Assembly (NCBI GenBank): GCA_002717655.1
Contig: PBAY01000039.1
Coordinates: 62,001-126,000, forward strand
Reading direction: 5' to 3'
Origin: Phycisphaerae bacterium
Lineage (GTDB): Bacteria; Planctomycetota; Phycisphaerae; Phycisphaerales; SM1A02
Length of the DNA stretch: 64,000 nt
The notes under the pieces are model-generated. The model worked only from the letters and a program-made list of their open reading frames with translations, had not been told where the DNA came from and did not search any database. The translations under genes were made by a program, and so were the position numbers. Below, piece by piece: positions 44,522-58,214 of this stretch (position 1 is the stretch's first letter; every line of letters starts with the position of its first letter).

Positions 44522-44980
44522 TCAGATGGATACATCAATCCACTCGAACTGCATCCCACAACCGGCACATTGCCCTGACTGACCAGCGGCTCTTTCAGCC
44601 GGCAGAGGTGCACCGCACTCCAGACAGTTCAGTTCCGTGATGTCAACGATCATCCCGCCGCCGGCCAGTGTGATACCGGCCTTGTCCAGAAGTTCGATGG
44701 CTTGCATTCGATCAGCAGCAGCGACCGGCAGTACTCGGGAGTTCGCAGCTGATTCAAACACATAACCCATGGCTTGAAGTCCACCGAGCACACCACTCTG
44801 CTCGGCTTGTCCAACAAGCAGACCAGCGCCATCGAGCAGATTTCGAGCTCGCCCAAAATCCACGGTGAAAGCGGGTTGAAGCAGTTCCAACGCCGGTTCC
44901 TGACAGTCAGGGCAGTTATCCGGACCCGCTGGGCGTGTGTTCTGGCAGGACCAGCAGATGATGTTTTCTGGGGAATCCAC
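44522..44980 (-). CDS. Double zinc-ribbon protein of unknown function
   Basis: A 152-aa protein with a four-Cys ribbon at each end: CWSCQNTRPAGPDNCPDC at residues 9-26, and near the C-terminus CLECGAPLP followed by CAGCGMQFE. The middle 80 residues contain two similar segments, ARNLLDGAGLLVG and AIELLDKAGITLAGG, which suggest a small duplicated fold like those of DUF2007-type proteins (tentative). Start is GTG; GAGG is only one base upstream, so initiation is not well defined. No binding partner is evident. Confidence 0.65.
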   Translation of the reverse strand: MDSPENIICWSCQNTRPAGPDNCPDCQEPALELLQPAFTVDFGRARNLLDGAGLLVGQAEQSGVLGGLQAMGYVFESAANSRVLPVAAADRMQAIELLDKAGITLAGGGMIVDITELNCLECGAPLPAERAAGQSGQCAGCGMQFEWIDVSI

Positions 44981-45200: not shown

Positions 45201-47480
45201 ATGTCACTCACGATTGAATTTCTGGACGGGGAACGCAGTGGCGAAGTTCTGTCATTCGAGGACAGCGTCGTCACCATCGCCATTGGCCGTGATCCTGAAC
45301 GCTGTCAGGTGGTTCTGCCACCAGATCTCCGCATGGTTGGTCGTGAGCACTGCACCATCAATCGTGTTCGTGGTCATTACTACATGGAGATGGGTGCTGA
45401 CCGGCGAGTCACGATGAATCAGGATCTGATGGAAACATCTCAGGTACTTGAATCAGACAGCATTCTTCAGATCGGACCAGATGGCCCTCGGATCAAGATC
45501 ACCATTCAGAAATCCGATGGGCTTGCGCCGACGCTTCAGCAGGGGATTGATCCTGAAGAAGTCAGTCGACGCAGCGCTTCACCGGCGAGTGCCGCAGATG
45601 TTGCAGAGGTTCAATCCGCAGCTGCCAAGGGGAGCCAACGTGCCGCCGTGGCTGTGGTCATGGCACTTGTTGTTCTTGTGATTGCAGGCATCTGGTTCTT
45701 TGTGATCAAAGGAAACATCGGTTCACTCGAAGAGCAGCAGGCCAGGCAGGGCAGTTCAGTTTCGGAAATGCAGGGCACGGTCGATTCACTTTCAGACGAA
45801 GTCACAAAGCTCGGCGGCAAGCTGTCCGATGCGTTGAATGTCGCCAAGGACTCGACCTATGTCGTCATTCGCGCCAATCGGGATGGATTGGAAGAGCCTT
45901 TCGGTACGGCCTGGGTGCTTGCACCTGGCGAACTGGCCACGAATGGCCATGTTGCGGCGCATTTCAATGAACTGTCCGAGGGACAGTCGCTCATCGTGAG
46001 ATCAATCGGGGGCAAGTCCACCTACGAAGTGACGGGCACCCTGATCCATCCCGGCTACGACGCGTTCACCAGCCTGTGGACCGACTATGTTCCGGTACAG
46101 ATTCATGGAAGCAAGGAATCGGATCCGATCCGATCTGCAGGCATGGCTGCTGATGTAGGTGTCCTGTATGTCTCAAGAGATTCCGATCTCGGCGAACCAT
46201 TGATTGTTGCACCTGAGGATTCACAACAGGAATTGCGAGCAGGGGATGTCGTCGGCTATGTCGGATATCCAGTCGAGGACATGGCGCTTGGAGGCATCAA
46301 TTTGCAGGAGCCTGTTCCCCAGACTCAGATTGGCTACATCACGGCCGTGACTGATTACTTCAATACGCCGGCAGCGGACAAGCCGGGACTGCTCATCCAG
46401 CATTCACTTCCAGGCACTGGCGGAGCAAGTGGTGCGCCATTGCTCAATGCGAATGGTGAAGTGGTCGGCCTTCTGAGTGCTGTCAACTTCATCGTTGTAG
46501 GCAATGAAAGAATCCCAAGCGGCATCGATGTCAACTTCGCTCAACGTTCAACGTTGCTTGAAGAGCTGCAGTCCAGAGATCTGAATGAAACACAGGCTGA
46601 GCGTACGGCAGGCTGGGAGCAACGGATCGAACAGCTCTATGCCTCGGGCCGTCTTCTCAACCGTTCTCCGGAACTTGATGATGTGATTGCCGGTTGGGAG
46701 CAGATGGTCAGCTCGAATACCGGTCAGGTTGTCCTTGGATCCGAAGTCGTGTCTTCAGAGCTGTTCCCGGTTGACTCACTTCAGATCGATGCCTTTGCGA
46801 TGGGCGCTGGTGATGCACTGGGCGCCCAGATCTTCAGTCGAGCAGTCGAGATGGAGGTCGAGGCAGGCAAGGAGTATCTGCTTACCATCGAGGGTGAAGG
46901 CGAGGTCATGGGTCGAGTTGATGGAAGCGATGTTCGAGTAACGAACACGATGAACATCAAGCCACGCCTGAAGGCGATTGCATTTCGTGCACAGCGCAGT
47001 GGAAGAATCAAGGCACATATCGGTACCACCGATGCGTCCGGTACGCTCGGTTATCAACTTCGCTCAGCGAATGTGACCAAGGCAACTCCTGAAGCGGTTG
47101 CGGAAGCGGCAACCAGAAGATGGTTGCAGGATCTGTCACGGCGGGACGGGGAGCAACTCGAATCACGTCGAATCCGCCAGTGGAAGAAACGCCTTCAGCC
47201 GGATTCTGCTGGCCGAGGTGAAGCAGTTCAGGCGATTGATCTTGATGCCGCAGGCCGATGGTTCCTGGTCGCCGTCTCAACGGACATGAATGACATCAAT
47301 CTTCGTGTGACTGATGCCGATGGCACCTTGATCGCCGAGGATAATCAGCGGGACTGGTATCCGTTCATTGCGATTGAAACACGCCAGAAGAAGAAGTTGG
47401 ATGTTCGGATTTCCTCACCAGATCCAGATGTCGAGTATCAACTCTATCTGTACCGGGCGGTACCTCAGTCGGGGAGCTGA
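45201..47480 (+). CDS. FHA domain - transmembrane - trypsin-like serine protease fusion
   Basis: A 759-aa protein. Residues 1-100 form an FHA phosphothreonine-binding domain (AIGRDPERCQVVL, VGREHCTINR). One membrane helix lies near 148-168 (VVMALVVLVIAGIWFFVI), followed by a likely coiled coil (to about 215). The protease domain has His in LATNGHVAAHF (about 249), an Asp candidate in SLWTDYVP or VGVLYVSRDSD, and the serine in GTGGASGAPLLN (about 410). The last 250 residues are beta domains of PPC type. With no signal peptide, the FHA should be in the cytoplasm and the protease outside, as in sensor proteases. Its 3' end overlaps the convergent FHA-HD-GYP gene by 16 bases. Confidence 0.85.
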   Translation: MSLTIEFLDGERSGEVLSFEDSVVTIAIGRDPERCQVVLPPDLRMVGREHCTINRVRGHYYMEMGADRRVTMNQDLMETSQVLESDSILQIGPDGPRIKITIQKSDGLAPTLQQGIDPEEVSRRSASPASAADVAEVQSAAAKGSQRAAVAVVMALVVLVIAGIWFFVIKGNIGSLEEQQARQGSSVSEMQGTVDSLSDEVTKLGGKLSDALNVAKDSTYVVIRANRDGLEEPFGTAWVLAPGELATNGHVAAHFNELSEGQSLIVRSIGGKSTYEVTGTLIHPGYDAFTSLWTDYVPVQIHGSKESDPIRSAGMAADVGVLYVSRDSDLGEPLIVAPEDSQQELRAGDVVGYVGYPVEDMALGGINLQEPVPQTQIGYITAVTDYFNTPAADKPGLLIQHSLPGTGGASGAPLLNANGEVVGLLSAVNFIVVGNERIPSGIDVNFAQRSTLLEELQSRDLNETQAERTAGWEQRIEQLYASGRLLNRSPELDDVIAGWEQMVSSNTGQVVLGSEVVSSELFPVDSLQIDAFAMGAGDALGAQIFSRAVEMEVEAGKEYLLTIEGEGEVMGRVDGSDVRVTNTMNIKPRLKAIAFRAQRSGRIKAHIGTTDASGTLGYQLRSANVTKATPEAVAEAATRRWLQDLSRRDGEQLESRRIRQWKKRLQPDSAGRGEAVQAIDLDAAGRWFLVAVSTDMNDINLRVTDADGTLIAEDNQRDWYPFIAIETRQKKKLDVRISSPDPDVEYQLYLYRAVPQSGS

Positions 47481-48997
47481 TTCTCTTCCCCTGAAACATC
47501 TTCAAGCATTCGGTTGTAGGCATCAAGATTGATCTTCAGGAAAGCTTCCGCCATCTCAGGATCAAACTGTGAACCTGAAGACTTGCGAATCTCTTCCAGT
47601 GCGTGTTCAGGCTTCATGCCGGAACGATAGGCCCGGGCTGATCGCATGGCATCAAATGCATCGACAACGGCAACAAGTCTGCCCAGCTCGGGAATGTCCT
47701 CTCCGACAAGGCCATCCGGGTAGCCACGACCATCCCATCGTTCATGGTGATGTCGCACGCCTCCAAGCAGTTTCTGCATGGCAGGTATGTCACTGAGGAT
47801 GCGGTAACCGATGTCGGGATGCTGCTTGATCAGATCGAATTCTTCATCAGAAAGTCCCCCGGGCTTCGTGAGTACTGATTCAGGAACCCCGATCTTGCCT
47901 ACATCATGTACCTGACCACATACACGAGCGGCTTCGATTGTGGATTCGGGATGTCCAAGCGCTCGTGCCAGTTGGGAGGAAAGCAGCGCAACTCGATCGG
48001 AATGGCCGCGGGTATATGGATCCTTGGCGTCAATCGCAGATGCCAGTGCACGAACCGTACCTTCGAACATGCTGCTGCGTGCTTCGGCGAACCGACGTTC
48101 CAGATCGGCACGAGAAAGATTCGCAAGTGCAATCGAAGCCAACTGGGAGAGGCCGATGATGAAATCGATATCACCTTCGACGGTGTCCTGAGGTATGGCT
48201 GGATCGACACTGTCGACATACAGAACCGAAGCAGTCGCATTGCCGAGGATGAATGGGGTGGCGACTGCTGCCTGAACCTGGAATCTGGAAAGGCTCTCAG
48301 CGATACTGCCTCCTGATTCGATGAATCGAGCGGGCTTGCCTCGGGCGGCCATGTTCAGAAGTGTGAAACTGAATCGATCAGGTGCTGCAGCCATGAGTTC
48401 TCCCGCAGCAAGCAGGATTTCGATCTGACCCGTTTCGTCAGGACTGCTGATGACGGCCGCATCCTTGAAAGCCGAACCGGTTGTTACGGCATGAAGCACC
48501 TTCTTGAATACGGATTGTTCATCAGCGGCATCATGAATACTTCGACTGAAGTCCAGGAGGCTTGCCAATCGATTCCGGTCGAGTTCCGCTGCGAGTTTTT
48601 CCGGGGTGGATTCGACCAGTTCCCCGGGGCTTTCGATCGTATCAAGCTGAATACGACGACTCGGATGTCCGAATGACTGATCAGCATCCTTGGGTCGGAA
48701 CTGCAGCATCAAGTCGGGTAGTCCGATTCGATCGCCTGGCCGCAGTGCGCACGGCAGTCCACTTGGAATTTTTTCGCCATTGAGTTGCGTGCCCGAACGA
48801 GATCCAAGATCCGTCAACATCCATGACTCATTGGTCGGCTGCCAGTTGATCTGGGCATGTTGTCTCGAAGTCTGTGGAGAATCCGTGATGACATCACAGT
48901 CCCGACTTCTTCCGATCAGGATCTGACGAGGGCCTTCCAGCATGATCTGGACAGACTGAGCACCTCCAATTGATACCAGTTGCATCGGTGCATTCAT
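47465..48997 (-). CDS. FHA-GAF-HD-GYP cyclic di-GMP phosphodiesterase-type protein
   Basis: A 510-aa cytoplasmic signalling protein. FHA domain: ILIGRSRDCDVI, SRQHAQINW and LGSRSGTQLNGEKI within the first 90 residues. A GAF-like domain covers about 135-300 (FKDAAVISSPDETGQIEIL, ATASVLYVDS). The HD-GYP domain covers about 310-495, with RGHSDRVALLSSQLA, HDVGKIGVPESVL and the signature HHERWDGRGYPDGL. HD-GYP domains hydrolyse cyclic di-GMP. The FHA suggests control by a Ser/Thr kinase. It faces the FHA-protease gene tail to tail. Confidence 0.92.
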   Translation of the reverse strand: MNAPMQLVSIGGAQSVQIMLEGPRQILIGRSRDCDVITDSPQTSRQHAQINWQPTNESWMLTDLGSRSGTQLNGEKIPSGLPCALRPGDRIGLPDLMLQFRPKDADQSFGHPSRRIQLDTIESPGELVESTPEKLAAELDRNRLASLLDFSRSIHDAADEQSVFKKVLHAVTTGSAFKDAAVISSPDETGQIEILLAAGELMAAAPDRFSFTLLNMAARGKPARFIESGGSIAESLSRFQVQAAVATPFILGNATASVLYVDSVDPAIPQDTVEGDIDFIIGLSQLASIALANLSRADLERRFAEARSSMFEGTVRALASAIDAKDPYTRGHSDRVALLSSQLARALGHPESTIEAARVCGQVHDVGKIGVPESVLTKPGGLSDEEFDLIKQHPDIGYRILSDIPAMQKLLGGVRHHHERWDGRGYPDGLVGEDIPELGRLVAVVDAFDAMRSARAYRSGMKPEHALEEIRKSSGSQFDPEMAEAFLKINLDAYNRMLEDVSGEENQLPD

Positions 48998-53787: not shown

Positions 53788-56460
53788 ATGTCCGAGACCC
53801 CGCATAACTCGAAAGCAACAAGCCCGGTTGCCACGTCTGTAGAGGCGGAGCGTCTGCATGATGAGGTCGATCATTGCCCATGGAGAGCCTTCGGTCCATA
53901 TCTTTCAGATCGACAGTGGGGCACCGTGCGTGAGGACTACAGCGCCGACGGGTCCGCCTGGGATTACTTCACTCACGATGATGCTCGACATCGAGCCTAC
54001 CGATGGGGGGAGGATGGTCTGGCAGGGTTCTGTGACAGTGCCGGCCGTCTCTGCTTCGCGATCGCCTTGTGGAATGGCAAGGATCCGATTCTGAAGGAAC
54101 GGCTTTTCGGTCTGGCCAATTCGCAAGGCAACCATGGCGAGGATGTCAAGGAGTACTACTGGCATCAGGATGCTGTTCCAAGTCATGCGTATCAGCGGAT
54201 GATGTATCGCTATCCACAAGCGGCTTATCCATATGACGATCTGGTCAAGGAAAATGCCCGACGCGGATTCAATGACCGGGAGTACGAACTCATCGATACC
54301 GGTGTTCTTGATGAGAACCGGTTCTTCGATGTTTCAGTCGAGTATGCCAAGGCTGACACGCAGGACATTCTCATGCGGATCGAGGTTCACAATCATGGGC
54401 CAGAAGCAAGTCCAATCGATGTCCTGCCTCACGTCTGGTTTCGAAACACATGGTCCTGGGACGAGGGAGCTTCTCGTCCTCTGCTTCATCAAGATGGAGC
54501 ATCGACGATTCGGATCCAACATCCTGATTTCAAAGACTGGTCCTGGACCATGGAGGGGCCTGACGAGTTGTTGTTCACGGAGAACGATACGAATCCAACA
54601 ATCATGTGGAATCTGCGTGCTGAGGGCTGGTTCAAGGATGCCTTCCACGAGTATGTCACAGGTGGTGATCAGTCAGCGGTGAACCCGGACGGCCAGGGCA
54701 CCAAGGCTGCCGGTCGTGTACGACATCTGATTCCCGCAGGCGAGTCCATGGTCATTCGCGTCCGGTTCGGCCAGCTTTCTTCTTCTGATCAGTTCAAGGA
54801 ATTCGATGAGATCGTTTCAAAGCGCCGTGCAGAAGCCGATGACTTCTATCAATCGCTTGCCGCAGGGATGGATGATCCGGAAAGCATCGACCTTCACCGT
54901 CGTGCACATGCCGGATTGCTCTGGACGAAACAGTGTTATCACTACGATGTTGATCGGTGGCTTGCGGGCGATTCAACGATGCCTCCGCCTCCGCCAGAAC
55001 GACTCACTGGTCGCAACCATCAATGGACACATCTGGACAATCATGATGTTCTGTTGATGCCGGATTCATGGGAGTATCCCTGGTACGCCGCGTGGGATCT
55101 TGCGTTTCATTGCGTAACGCTCGTAGAGACCGATCCTGCCCTGGCAAAGAAACAACTGAGACTGTTTACGCGCGAGTGGTACATGCACCCAAACGGGGAA
55201 CTGCCCGCCTATGAGTGGTCGTTGGGCGATGTGAATCCACCGGTGCATGCCTGGGCGGCCTGGCGAGTCTTCCAGATTGACCGGCGCAGGCGCGGTGACG
55301 AGGGTGATCTGGAGTTTCTCGAGTCCGTCTTCCACAAGTTGATGTTGAATTTCACCTGGTGGGTCAATCGAGAGGATGACGACGACCGCAATGTCTTTGA
55401 AGGTGGGTTCCTCGGGCTCGACAACATCGGCGTCTTTGATCGAAGCGCGGAATTGCCTACGGGTGGTTGTCTGGATCAAGCGGACGGCACGAGCTGGATG
55501 GCGATGTACAGCTTGAATCTTCTGCGCATCGCGATCGAACTTGCCCAGACCAGACCGGCCTATCAGGACATTGCTTCCAAGTTCTTCGAACACTTCCTGC
55601 GCATTGCCTATGCGATGAACAATGTCGGTGGTGATGATCTTGGTCTTTGGGATGAAGAAGACGAGTTCTTCTACGACGTTCTGCGAACGCCTGATGGCAG
55701 ATCACAACCGCTTCGCGTTCGTTCGATGGTCGGTTTGATTCCACTGTTCGCGGTGGAGGTCATCAATGGTTCGATGCTGGATAAGCTGCCTGAATTCATC
55801 GAACGTGCGAAATGGTTGCGCGATGCGAGACCGGAACTCGCCGCACTTGTTTCCCGTTGGCATGATCCAGGCAAGGAGGAGCGACGACTCCTGAGTCTGC
55901 TGCGAGCTCATCGGATGCAGAGAATTCTGGCGAGAATGCTCGATCCTGAGGAGTTCCTTTCGCCACACGGCATCCGGGCGCTGTCTCGTTACCACCTTGA
56001 TCACCCATACCTATTCAAGAACGGCAAGGAGACGTTGCAGGTCAAGTACGCTTCAGGGGAATCAAATCAGGGACTCTTCGGCGGCAATTCAAACTGGCGT
56101 GGTCCCATCTGGTTCCCTGTGAACTTCCTGATCATCGAGTCACTGCAGAAGTTCCAGTATTTCTATGGCGATGATCTGAAAGTGGAATGCCCTGTTGGTT
56201 CAGGTACCATGCTGACACTCGGACAGGTGGCGGATGAGATCCGCCAACGGCTTCTTTCCTTGTTCAAGATCAACGAGGATGGCAAACGGCCATTTTATGG
56301 CGACGATGAACAGTTGCAGAACAACCCGCTCTTTCAGAATGAGATTCTGTTCCATGAGTACTTTGATGGCGACACAGGTCGAGGTTGTGGTGCGTCTCAC
56401 CAGACCGGTTGGACGGCCTTGGCAGCCAAACTCTGCCTGCCTCGTCGCCCGGGAACCTGA
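53788..56460 (+). CDS. GH63-type glucosidase (MGH1-like)
   Basis: An 890-aa cytoplasmic protein (no signal peptide). The start MSETPHNSKATSP was chosen by the family's next motif ERLHDEVDHCPWRAFGPYLSDRQWGTVREDYS. A beta-sandwich N-domain of about 350 residues is followed by an (alpha/alpha)6 barrel with LWTKQCYHYDVDRWL, GLDNIGVFDRSA, LGLWDEEDEFFYDVL and WRGPIWFPVNFLI, where acidic residues of the DxFDR and WRGP-type blocks match the GH63/GH15 barrel. Likely substrates are mannosylglycerate, trehalose-like or other glucosides. Its stop lies 11 bases before the HD-GYP regulator. Confidence 0.85.
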   Translation: MSETPHNSKATSPVATSVEAERLHDEVDHCPWRAFGPYLSDRQWGTVREDYSADGSAWDYFTHDDARHRAYRWGEDGLAGFCDSAGRLCFAIALWNGKDPILKERLFGLANSQGNHGEDVKEYYWHQDAVPSHAYQRMMYRYPQAAYPYDDLVKENARRGFNDREYELIDTGVLDENRFFDVSVEYAKADTQDILMRIEVHNHGPEASPIDVLPHVWFRNTWSWDEGASRPLLHQDGASTIRIQHPDFKDWSWTMEGPDELLFTENDTNPTIMWNLRAEGWFKDAFHEYVTGGDQSAVNPDGQGTKAAGRVRHLIPAGESMVIRVRFGQLSSSDQFKEFDEIVSKRRAEADDFYQSLAAGMDDPESIDLHRRAHAGLLWTKQCYHYDVDRWLAGDSTMPPPPPERLTGRNHQWTHLDNHDVLLMPDSWEYPWYAAWDLAFHCVTLVETDPALAKKQLRLFTREWYMHPNGELPAYEWSLGDVNPPVHAWAAWRVFQIDRRRRGDEGDLEFLESVFHKLMLNFTWWVNREDDDDRNVFEGGFLGLDNIGVFDRSAELPTGGCLDQADGTSWMAMYSLNLLRIAIELAQTRPAYQDIASKFFEHFLRIAYAMNNVGGDDLGLWDEEDEFFYDVLRTPDGRSQPLRVRSMVGLIPLFAVEVINGSMLDKLPEFIERAKWLRDARPELAALVSRWHDPGKEERRLLSLLRAHRMQRILARMLDPEEFLSPHGIRALSRYHLDHPYLFKNGKETLQVKYASGESNQGLFGGNSNWRGPIWFPVNFLIIESLQKFQYFYGDDLKVECPVGSGTMLTLGQVADEIRQRLLSLFKINEDGKRPFYGDDEQLQNNPLFQNEILFHEYFDGDTGRGCGASHQTGWTALAAKLCLPRRPGT

Positions 56461-56471
56461 GCGAGTTTCAC

Positions 56472-58214
56472 GTGGCTACTGAATCAGGTTCCATCCATGT
56501 CATTCTGGTTGATGATCAAGCCATGGTCGGCGAAGCCATGCGTCGTATGTTGTCCGATGACAAGGAACTAAGGCTGACTCATGTGCAGGATTCCACCACG
56601 GCGCATGCGATCATCAGGGAAGCGCAGCCGACGGTTGTCATTGTTGATCTGGTGATGCCCGAGTTGGATGGAATGCATCTCATCCGGAAAATACGGATGG
56701 ATGAATCAACTCGCGATATTCCAGCAATCATGCTGAGCAGCGAATCAGATGTGCATCGCAAGGTGGAGGCTTTCCAGGCAGGAGCGAATGACTTTCTCGT
56801 GAAAATGCCGGATCGCCTTGAACTGGTGGCTCGAATCCAGGCGCTCGCAGCGAAGTCGATTGCGGAGCGGGAGCTCCGCCTCATGGCGGATCAGCTGCAG
56901 CAACAGGCCGTCGCACTGGATGAAGCCAATCGTTCACTTCAGGCGATCAACATCTCTCTTGAATCGGATGTGAGCGAACAGCGGGAGCGACTCAGATCGA
57001 TCGCGATGCTGGGCAATGAACTGGCCTTGATCCGGGATATCAACATCCTCATTGAGCGTCTGCTTCACGAGGCCTGTCACATTCTCGGTGCGGATGCCGG
57101 TGCGGCCTATCTGGTCGATGGTGATCACCTTCGATTGATGCATGCTCAGAATGAATCCATGGATGATCAGGAGCGTCTTGAACAGTTTCGAAAGTCAGCA
57201 GTGCATATCCCCATTGATACAACCAGTCTGGTTGGATGGGTGGCCAAGTCAGGGGAACTGGTGAACGTCGATGATGTCTATGACATTGATCCGGATCAGC
57301 CCTTCACGTTCAACACCGCCTTTGATGACAGTACGGGTTATCACACGAAATCAGTACTCGGAGCGCCATTGGTCGGAACTGCAGGTCAGGTCATCGGTGT
57401 TCTTCAGTTGATCAATCCGATGCAGGCCAATGGCGAACGAAGGCCGAGTTTCACTGATGATGACATGAACGCCGTTCGACATTTCGCATCGATGGCCTCG
57501 GTTTCAATGCAGAATGCGCAACTGACACGATCCATGATCCTGCGGATGATCCGGATGGCGGAACTTCGAGATCCATCGGAAACAGGTGCACATGCAAACC
57601 GAGTCGCTGAATACGCACTGGTGATCTACGAGGGATGGGCCAACCGTCAGGATCTCAGCAAGGAGGAGATCGCGGCTGAACGTGATCGTCTTCGAATTGC
57701 AGCGATGCTTCATGATGTCGGCAAGGTTGCGATCCCGGACAGCATTCTGAAGAAACCCGGAAAGCTGTCTGATGAGGAATTCGCGATCATGCAGGGCCAC
57801 ACCATGGTTGATGCAGCCTTGTTCGATGAGCTTCTCTCAGGTTATGACGAAGCGGCGGCCACGGTGGTTCGAGGTCATCATGAACGCTGGGATGGCACAG
57901 GCTATCCAGGGCTTCAGGAACTTGATCGAGATGAACAGGGGTATCTGATCTATCCAGATACGCCGATTCATGAGGGTCGGGCGGGTTCCGACATACCACT
58001 GTTCGCCCGGATCGTCGCGATTGCCGATGTGTTCGATGCATTGGGCTCGGCACGTTCCTACAAGGAAGCCTGGCCTGAAGATCGGATTCTGGAGCTTTTG
58101 AAGAAGGAGTCCGGCTCTCACTTCGATCCAGAACTTGTCGAGATCTTCATTGATGGAATCGAAGCCATTCGAACCATTCAGCATCGTTGGAGCGGCAACG
58201 CCGGTACCAGCTGA
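56472..58214 (+). CDS. Response regulator with GAF and HD-GYP output
   Basis: A 580-aa protein. GTG is the preferred start (GAG six bases upstream); upstream in-frame codons overlap the glucosidase gene. The receiver has VDDQ and phosphorylated Asp59 in VIVDLVMPELDG, but where a KP usually follows the conserved Lys it reads VKMP. A coiled-coil stretch (about 135-190) leads to a GAF domain (LADAGAAYLV-type; here ILGADAGAAYLVDG) and then HD-GYP: ETGAHANRVAEYAL, LHDVGKVAIPDSIL, HHERWDGTGYPG. It should hydrolyse cyclic di-GMP when its partner kinase, absent here, acts. Confidence 0.92.
   Translation: MATESGSIHVILVDDQAMVGEAMRRMLSDDKELRLTHVQDSTTAHAIIREAQPTVVIVDLVMPELDGMHLIRKIRMDESTRDIPAIMLSSESDVHRKVEAFQAGANDFLVKMPDRLELVARIQALAAKSIAERELRLMADQLQQQAVALDEANRSLQAINISLESDVSEQRERLRSIAMLGNELALIRDINILIERLLHEACHILGADAGAAYLVDGDHLRLMHAQNESMDDQERLEQFRKSAVHIPIDTTSLVGWVAKSGELVNVDDVYDIDPDQPFTFNTAFDDSTGYHTKSVLGAPLVGTAGQVIGVLQLINPMQANGERRPSFTDDDMNAVRHFASMASVSMQNAQLTRSMILRMIRMAELRDPSETGAHANRVAEYALVIYEGWANRQDLSKEEIAAERDRLRIAAMLHDVGKVAIPDSILKKPGKLSDEEFAIMQGHTMVDAALFDELLSGYDEAAATVVRGHHERWDGTGYPGLQELDRDEQGYLIYPDTPIHEGRAGSDIPLFARIVAIADVFDALGSARSYKEAWPEDRILELLKKESGSHFDPELVEIFIDGIEAIRTIQHRWSGNAGTS

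Follow-up and report, generated by a model that had tools for sequence, protein, structure and literature searches.

Conserved tail-to-tail pairing of an FHA-like membrane protease gene and an FHA-GAF-HD-GYP gene in Phycisphaerales

FHA domains usually read protein phosphorylation. In the stretch of DNA analysed here (64,000 nucleotides; the window), two convergent genes with overlapping 3′ ends each encode an N-terminal FHA or FHA-like domain, joined in one protein to a transmembrane (TM) helix and a trypsin-like protease and in the other to GAF and HD-GYP domains. An initial annotation had suggested that both FHA domains could read the output of the same Ser/Thr kinase. The arrangement raises the question of whether the two genes are a functional unit or merely neighbours. 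The window lies on contig C39 of a Phycisphaerales (Planctomycetota) metagenome-assembled genome (MAG) of 3.07 Mb, whose closest named relatives are Phycisphaerales MAGs, several of them from marine surveys. We tentatively favour an old, small signalling pair within the Ser/Thr-kinase network of marine Phycisphaerales, made up of a kinase-linked membrane protease and a phosphothreonine-reading HD-GYP protein. This reading draws on the observed domain content, intact catalytic residues and conserved pairing, on the linkage of distantly related proteases to kinases, and on the kinases and GGDEF enzymes that the genome encodes.

Domain architecture of the two proteins

The open reading frames, their strands and lengths, and the overlap agreed exactly with the initial annotation, and the domain contents that it proposed are real, with the qualification that the FHA domain of the protease is divergent and the GAF domain is recognized by structural modelling only. 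The features of the locus are as follows.

45201..47480, + strand: FHA-TM-trypsin-like protease gene, 759 amino acids (open reading frame, Pfam, model)
45201..45512, + strand: N-terminal non-canonical FHA-like domain, residues 1–104 (Gly-Arg kept; Gly47 for the phosphothreonine-contacting Ser, VGREH; Arg at the Asn position)
45531..45533, + strand: codon of Thr111, candidate kinase site (linker Thr conserved in 21/25 FHA-TM-proteases)
45648..45707, + strand: transmembrane helix, residues ~150–169 (hydropathy; modelled helix 131–169)
45723..45851, + strand: predicted helical or coiled-coil spacer, residues ~175–217 (low model confidence)
45855..46565, + strand: HtrA/DegS-like serine protease domain, residues 219–455 (catalytic H250, D318, S410)
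46728..47465, + strand: C-terminal beta-rich domains, residues ~510–755 (without a Pfam match)
47465..47480, no strand: overlap of the 3′ ends of the two genes, 16 bp
47465..48997, − strand: FHA-GAF-HD-GYP gene, 510 amino acids, product predicted cytoplasmic
48689..48985, − strand: canonical FHA domain, residues 5–103 (R30, S44, R45, H47 invariant; Ser replaces the Asn of NGT)
48128..48577, − strand: GAF-like domain, residues ~141–290 (model only)
47540..48064, − strand: HD-GYP domain, residues ~312–486 (H332, H364, D365, H393, H417, H418, D446 and GYP invariant)

Pfam Trypsin_2 matches residues 235–424 of the protease (E = 3.5e-12), and the catalytic triad is invariant in 15/15 protease orthologs. 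The modelled domain has an HtrA/DegS-like fold (against MucD, Z 19.7, root-mean-square deviation 3.4, 188 aligned residues). The hydropathy profile contains a single strong TM segment, preceded by a linker that is predicted to be disordered (residues 106–151; predicted local distance difference test below 50) and followed by a low-confidence modelled helix at residues 188–217. On this topology the protease domain would lie outside the membrane and the FHA-like part in the cytoplasm. The protein thus resembles the membrane-anchored proteases of the DegS/HtrA group in its N-terminal anchor and HtrA-type chymotrypsin fold (Z ~19), but differs from them in the large cytoplasmic FHA-like domain before the anchor and in its beta-rich domains with no Pfam PDZ match. 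The PDZ search was a Pfam scan of the whole window protease, in which the C-terminal domains were not fold-searched separately. Proteases of two other genera, g5 and g23, carry a C-terminal extension and total 1120–1272 amino acids. In g5 (L047 9678-13094, L119 8609-12031) this extension of ~380 amino acids contains a dockerin-like repeat, and a repeat of that kind also occurs in the secreted protein encoded by the convergent neighbour of the g5 protease.

Pfam detects both the FHA domain (2e-18) and HD_5 (6.6e-38) in the partner. Its HD metal ligands and HHExxDGxGYP motif are complete and invariant in 24/24 orthologs. The same 24 orthologs all keep Arg30, Ser44, Arg45 and His47 of the FHA domain and have Ser, Ala, His, Gly or Trp at the Asn position; the modelled FHA domain matches phosphopeptide-binding FHA domains such as those of DgcB, GarA, OdhI and MDC1. 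The GAF domain has no Pfam match and was modelled as an alpha/beta domain (residues 141–290), with an alignment to the GAF and HD-GYP structure of PmGH (4mcw) extending over 372 columns. Our protein shares with PmGH the order of a GAF-like and an HD-GYP domain, the metal-ligand His and Asp residues and the GYP motif; it differs in the added FHA domain at its front and in Tyr328, which aligns with a Glu of PmGH. Because that Glu occupies what we take to be the third-metal site, the HD-GYP domain here has perhaps a two-metal site.

The genome encodes three GGDEF proteins, one PilZ protein and one further full-length HD_5 protein, in addition to a receiver-GAF-HD-GYP protein in the window, which makes c-di-GMP (cyclic di-GMP) signalling plausible in this organism. 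Since GGDEF and PilZ proteins are present, c-di-GMP is also a plausible substrate of the HD-GYP domain. At L192 12228-14469 (G000:C30), just an HslV-like gene stands between the only PilZ gene and a small Ser/Thr kinase gene, and an FHA-GAF-HATPase gene lies ~3.5 kb past that kinase gene. Other FHA proteins of the genome are an FHA-SpoIIE phosphatase (L018 1378-3036), an FHA-GAF-histidine-kinase-like ATPase (L016 121-1806) and an FHA-sigma70 protein (L020 709-1890); fusion of FHA to an output domain is a general theme in this genome.

DgcB of Bdellovibrio (FHA-GGDEF) makes c-di-GMP, and its FHA domain reads the N-terminal tail of DgcB itself, placing the enzyme under phosphopeptide control (PMC6733907). 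The HD-GYP protein is similar in that it, too, joins FHA to an enzyme of c-di-GMP metabolism, but its GAF-HD-GYP part is predicted to hydrolyse c-di-GMP, and it is without an N-terminal tail, the FHA domain starting near residue 5. With its intact Arg/Ser pocket, it would be a second meeting point, after DgcB, of threonine phosphorylation and c-di-GMP.

Conservation and history of the pairing

A neighbourhood survey found the tail-to-tail pair in 6/6 sampled genomes of the window's genus (g1) and, at 38–42% identity, in 3/3 of a second genus (g27). The pairing is therefore not unique to this genome; uniqueness was an outcome that the initial annotation had named as one that would count against its proposal. 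In every genome in which both full-length genes were found they are adjacent (9/9 genomes, including one g27 copy whose contig stops within the HD-GYP gene). The convergent 3′ ends of relatives overlap by 25, 25, 10 or 4 bp or are separated by gaps of 3–4 bp. Outside these two genera, each gene was found without the other.

The flanks of the pair are wholly different in g1 and g27; it occupies a different chromosomal site in the second genus, and there it sits exactly at the end of a block homologous to contig C51. In the 1.1 Mb sample compared, eight units break collinearity between the genera: seven single genes and this pair, the only two-gene unit. We regard this joint displacement as moderate evidence, short of proof, for a functional unit. 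A comparison of two contigs in which only this adjacency appeared conserved was set aside as misleading, contig C22 mostly matching other contigs.

The HD-GYP tree groups g27 with the unpaired genus g13 (support 98/96), and a single clade of paired HD-GYP proteins is disfavoured (p-AU 0.018). We thus rejected an origin of the pairing once within such a clade. Because g27 joins an unpaired genus, the pairing probably predates the separation of g1 from g27 and g13, and g13 has probably lost the protease. The protease tree did not resolve the relationships among the two paired genera and the longer g5 and g23 proteases. The g5 protease is at the same genomic place as that of the window, in the order arylsulfatase, thioredoxin, CMD, protease, another gene, malic enzyme (one genome), MFS and HAD, with the gene for the secreted dockerin-like-repeat protein standing in place of the HD-GYP gene. 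A search of the g27 genomes did not find the malic enzyme of the g1/g5 locus, so that an empty donor or target site is unreadable. A mobile or viral origin was rejected, as the protease was found on no viral contig and the Rhizobium relative had no plasmid match, as was a defence system, the PADLOC matches being generic kinase and protease hits.

Linkage of the protease type to Ser/Thr kinases

As the initial annotation had stated, the window contains no kinase gene; the sole kinase match on the contig is ~8 kb past the left edge of the window, and the genome encodes 17 kinases above the cut-off. Six distant FHA-TM-protease loci adjoin or cluster with a Ser/Thr kinase gene. The kinase gene directly adjoins the protease gene in Rhizobium terricola (4-bp overlap) and in an alphaproteobacterium, and also in two planctomycetes, one of family f59 and one of family f2 (in the latter the two genes share a strand, with 127 bp between them); in two gammaproteobacteria a TPR-kinase, the protease and three further genes form one five-gene cluster. 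By chance, a kinase is expected as immediate neighbour at ~1% (~17 kinases among ~2,500 genes). In g27 a receiver-GAF-kinase gene lies ~4.6 kb from the protease gene. Because relatives as distant as Proteobacteria and other planctomycetes adjoin or cluster with kinase genes, the tie of the FHA-TM-protease type to Ser/Thr kinases gains independent support.

The proteobacterial clusters (L166 4034-7779; L167 399-7749; L168 172-7698; L169 959-6216) combine a TPR-Ser/Thr kinase with an FHA-TM-trypsin protein, and those of L167 and L168 also encode a TPR-S/DUF4145-like protein, a 304-residue protein that Pfam does not match and a CorA-like membrane protein. Their proteases are of the same FHA-TM-protease type as ours, with FHA parts 27–36% identical to that of the window protease and the Ser-to-Gly exchange in 3/4; unlike the window locus, they include a kinase gene, have no HD-GYP partner and encode a shorter protease C terminus. 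The arrangement looks like an undescribed kinase-protease system. In the open-access literature we found no description of an FHA-HD-GYP or FHA-protease pairing or of the protease family; subscription papers were mostly outside this search. Since the linkage to kinases spans phyla, kinase control could be tested directly in cultured bacteria, for instance Rhizobium terricola S-51.

A tentative signalling pair and its alternatives

In the reading that we tentatively favour, an HtrA/DegS-type serine protease would sit in the membrane with its protease domain acting outside, and a Ser/Thr kinase would control its cytoplasmic part, that is, the non-canonical FHA-like domain and the linker with the conserved Thr. 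Control would probably operate through linker phosphorylation or protein–protein contact rather than through phosphothreonine reading by the FHA-like domain. The cytoplasmic partner, a phosphodiesterase of the HD-GYP class, would read phosphothreonine through its canonical FHA domain and thereby gate c-di-GMP hydrolysis. We infer control of either protein by phosphorylation; any coupling between the two is hypothetical, and the pair may, but need not, jointly set envelope proteolysis and c-di-GMP level. Control of a protease by a Ser/Thr kinase from inside to outside would run in a direction that is uncommon in envelope signalling. The fullest version, in which a kinase phosphorylates the linker Thr to switch the extracytoplasmic protease and marine Phycisphaerales join this to c-di-GMP breakdown through the FHA-gated tail-to-tail HD-GYP protein, giving a circuit from phosphorylation to envelope proteolysis to second messenger, seems to us quite improbable as a whole.

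Several points weigh against a kinase-linked signalling pair. No kinase gene adjoins the protease in the window's genus, and the FHA-like domain of the protease is without two phosphothreonine contacts (Ser and Asn). Convergent genes share no promoter. The protease occurs without the HD-GYP gene in six genomes, and many other genera of the family have a full-length FHA-GAF-HD-GYP gene but not the protease. Finally, adjacency is generally well kept between g1 and g27, so that the adjacency of the pair proves little: in a 1.1 Mb sample, 48/55 neighbouring ortholog pairs remained adjacent, including 7/7 convergent pairs. With most gene order conserved, retained adjacency is expected by default, and we rejected the argument that conserved adjacency proves function.

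It is accordingly almost as probable that the genes are independent, convergent neighbours by inheritance only, the protease serving envelope quality control or signalling and the HD-GYP protein being one of the lineage's FHA-GAF output proteins. The adjacency baseline, the many relatives with one gene alone and the sister FHA-SpoIIE, FHA-GAF-HATPase and FHA-sigma70 proteins of the genome all fit this explanation. It accounts less well for the different site of the pair in g27, where it is the sole two-gene unit among the displaced units, and for its adjacency in every genome that holds both full-length genes.

The divergence of the FHA-like domain bears on a further explanation. Residues 1–104 of the window protease, in which Pfam FHA finds no match, were modelled as an all-beta domain, and the FHA identity comes from a weak TagH-model match (1e-4), from a family profile whose first PDB match is the FHA domain of Chlamydia CT664 (3gqs, E 0.0024) and from weak Pfam FHA detection of a g5 ortholog (8.3e-5). 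Among the planctomycete and proteobacterial relatives, Arg30 of the phosphate pocket is kept in 18/18, Gly47 takes the place of the SxxH Ser in 16/18, and basic or other residues replace the following Asn. With Ser exchanged for Gly and Asn gone, ordinary phosphothreonine binding by this domain is unlikely. For this reason the suggestion that the two FHA domains recognize phosphopeptides from the same kinase is unlikely in its simple form. The other outcome that the initial annotation had named as counting against its proposal, FHA domains without phosphothreonine contacts, is borne out by half: the protease keeps Arg30 and lacks the Ser and the Asn, and the HD-GYP protein has lost the Asn and retains Arg30 and Ser44. 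What stands of the proposed link between protease and kinase is the wider tie through distant relatives, not a role of the protease FHA as phosphopeptide reader.

The FHA-like domain could instead be a phosphate-independent assembly domain, as in the secretion-ring proteins YscD and CdsD, the protease then belonging to a membrane complex and not to kinase signalling. The altered pocket throughout the clade and the best profile match to CT664 point this way. We consider it unlikely, given the repeated linkage of distant relatives to kinases, the absence of secretion genes from the flanks that we examined and the canonical FHA motifs of the more distant FHA-proteases L051 and L053. Direct coupling, in which a kinase phosphorylates Thr111 and the canonical FHA domain of the HD-GYP protein binds at that site, thereby recruiting c-di-GMP hydrolysis to the membrane protease or signalling what state the protease is in, is very improbable despite the conserved pairing, the retained phosphate pocket and the position of Thr111 in a predicted disordered linker, because this putative phosphorylation site is kept equally in Proteobacteria (3/4 of the proteobacterial relatives) and in genomes without the HD-GYP gene, which thus cannot encode its sole reader.

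Neighbouring genes

A gene for a small zinc-ribbon protein with CxxC pairs at both ends (44522-44980, − strand) lies near the protease gene in three genomes of the genus. The second HD-GYP gene of the window (56385-58214, + strand), 7.4 kb from the pair, encodes the receiver-GAF-HD-GYP protein and is syntenic across the genus; an insertion within its HD-GYP domain divides the Pfam match.

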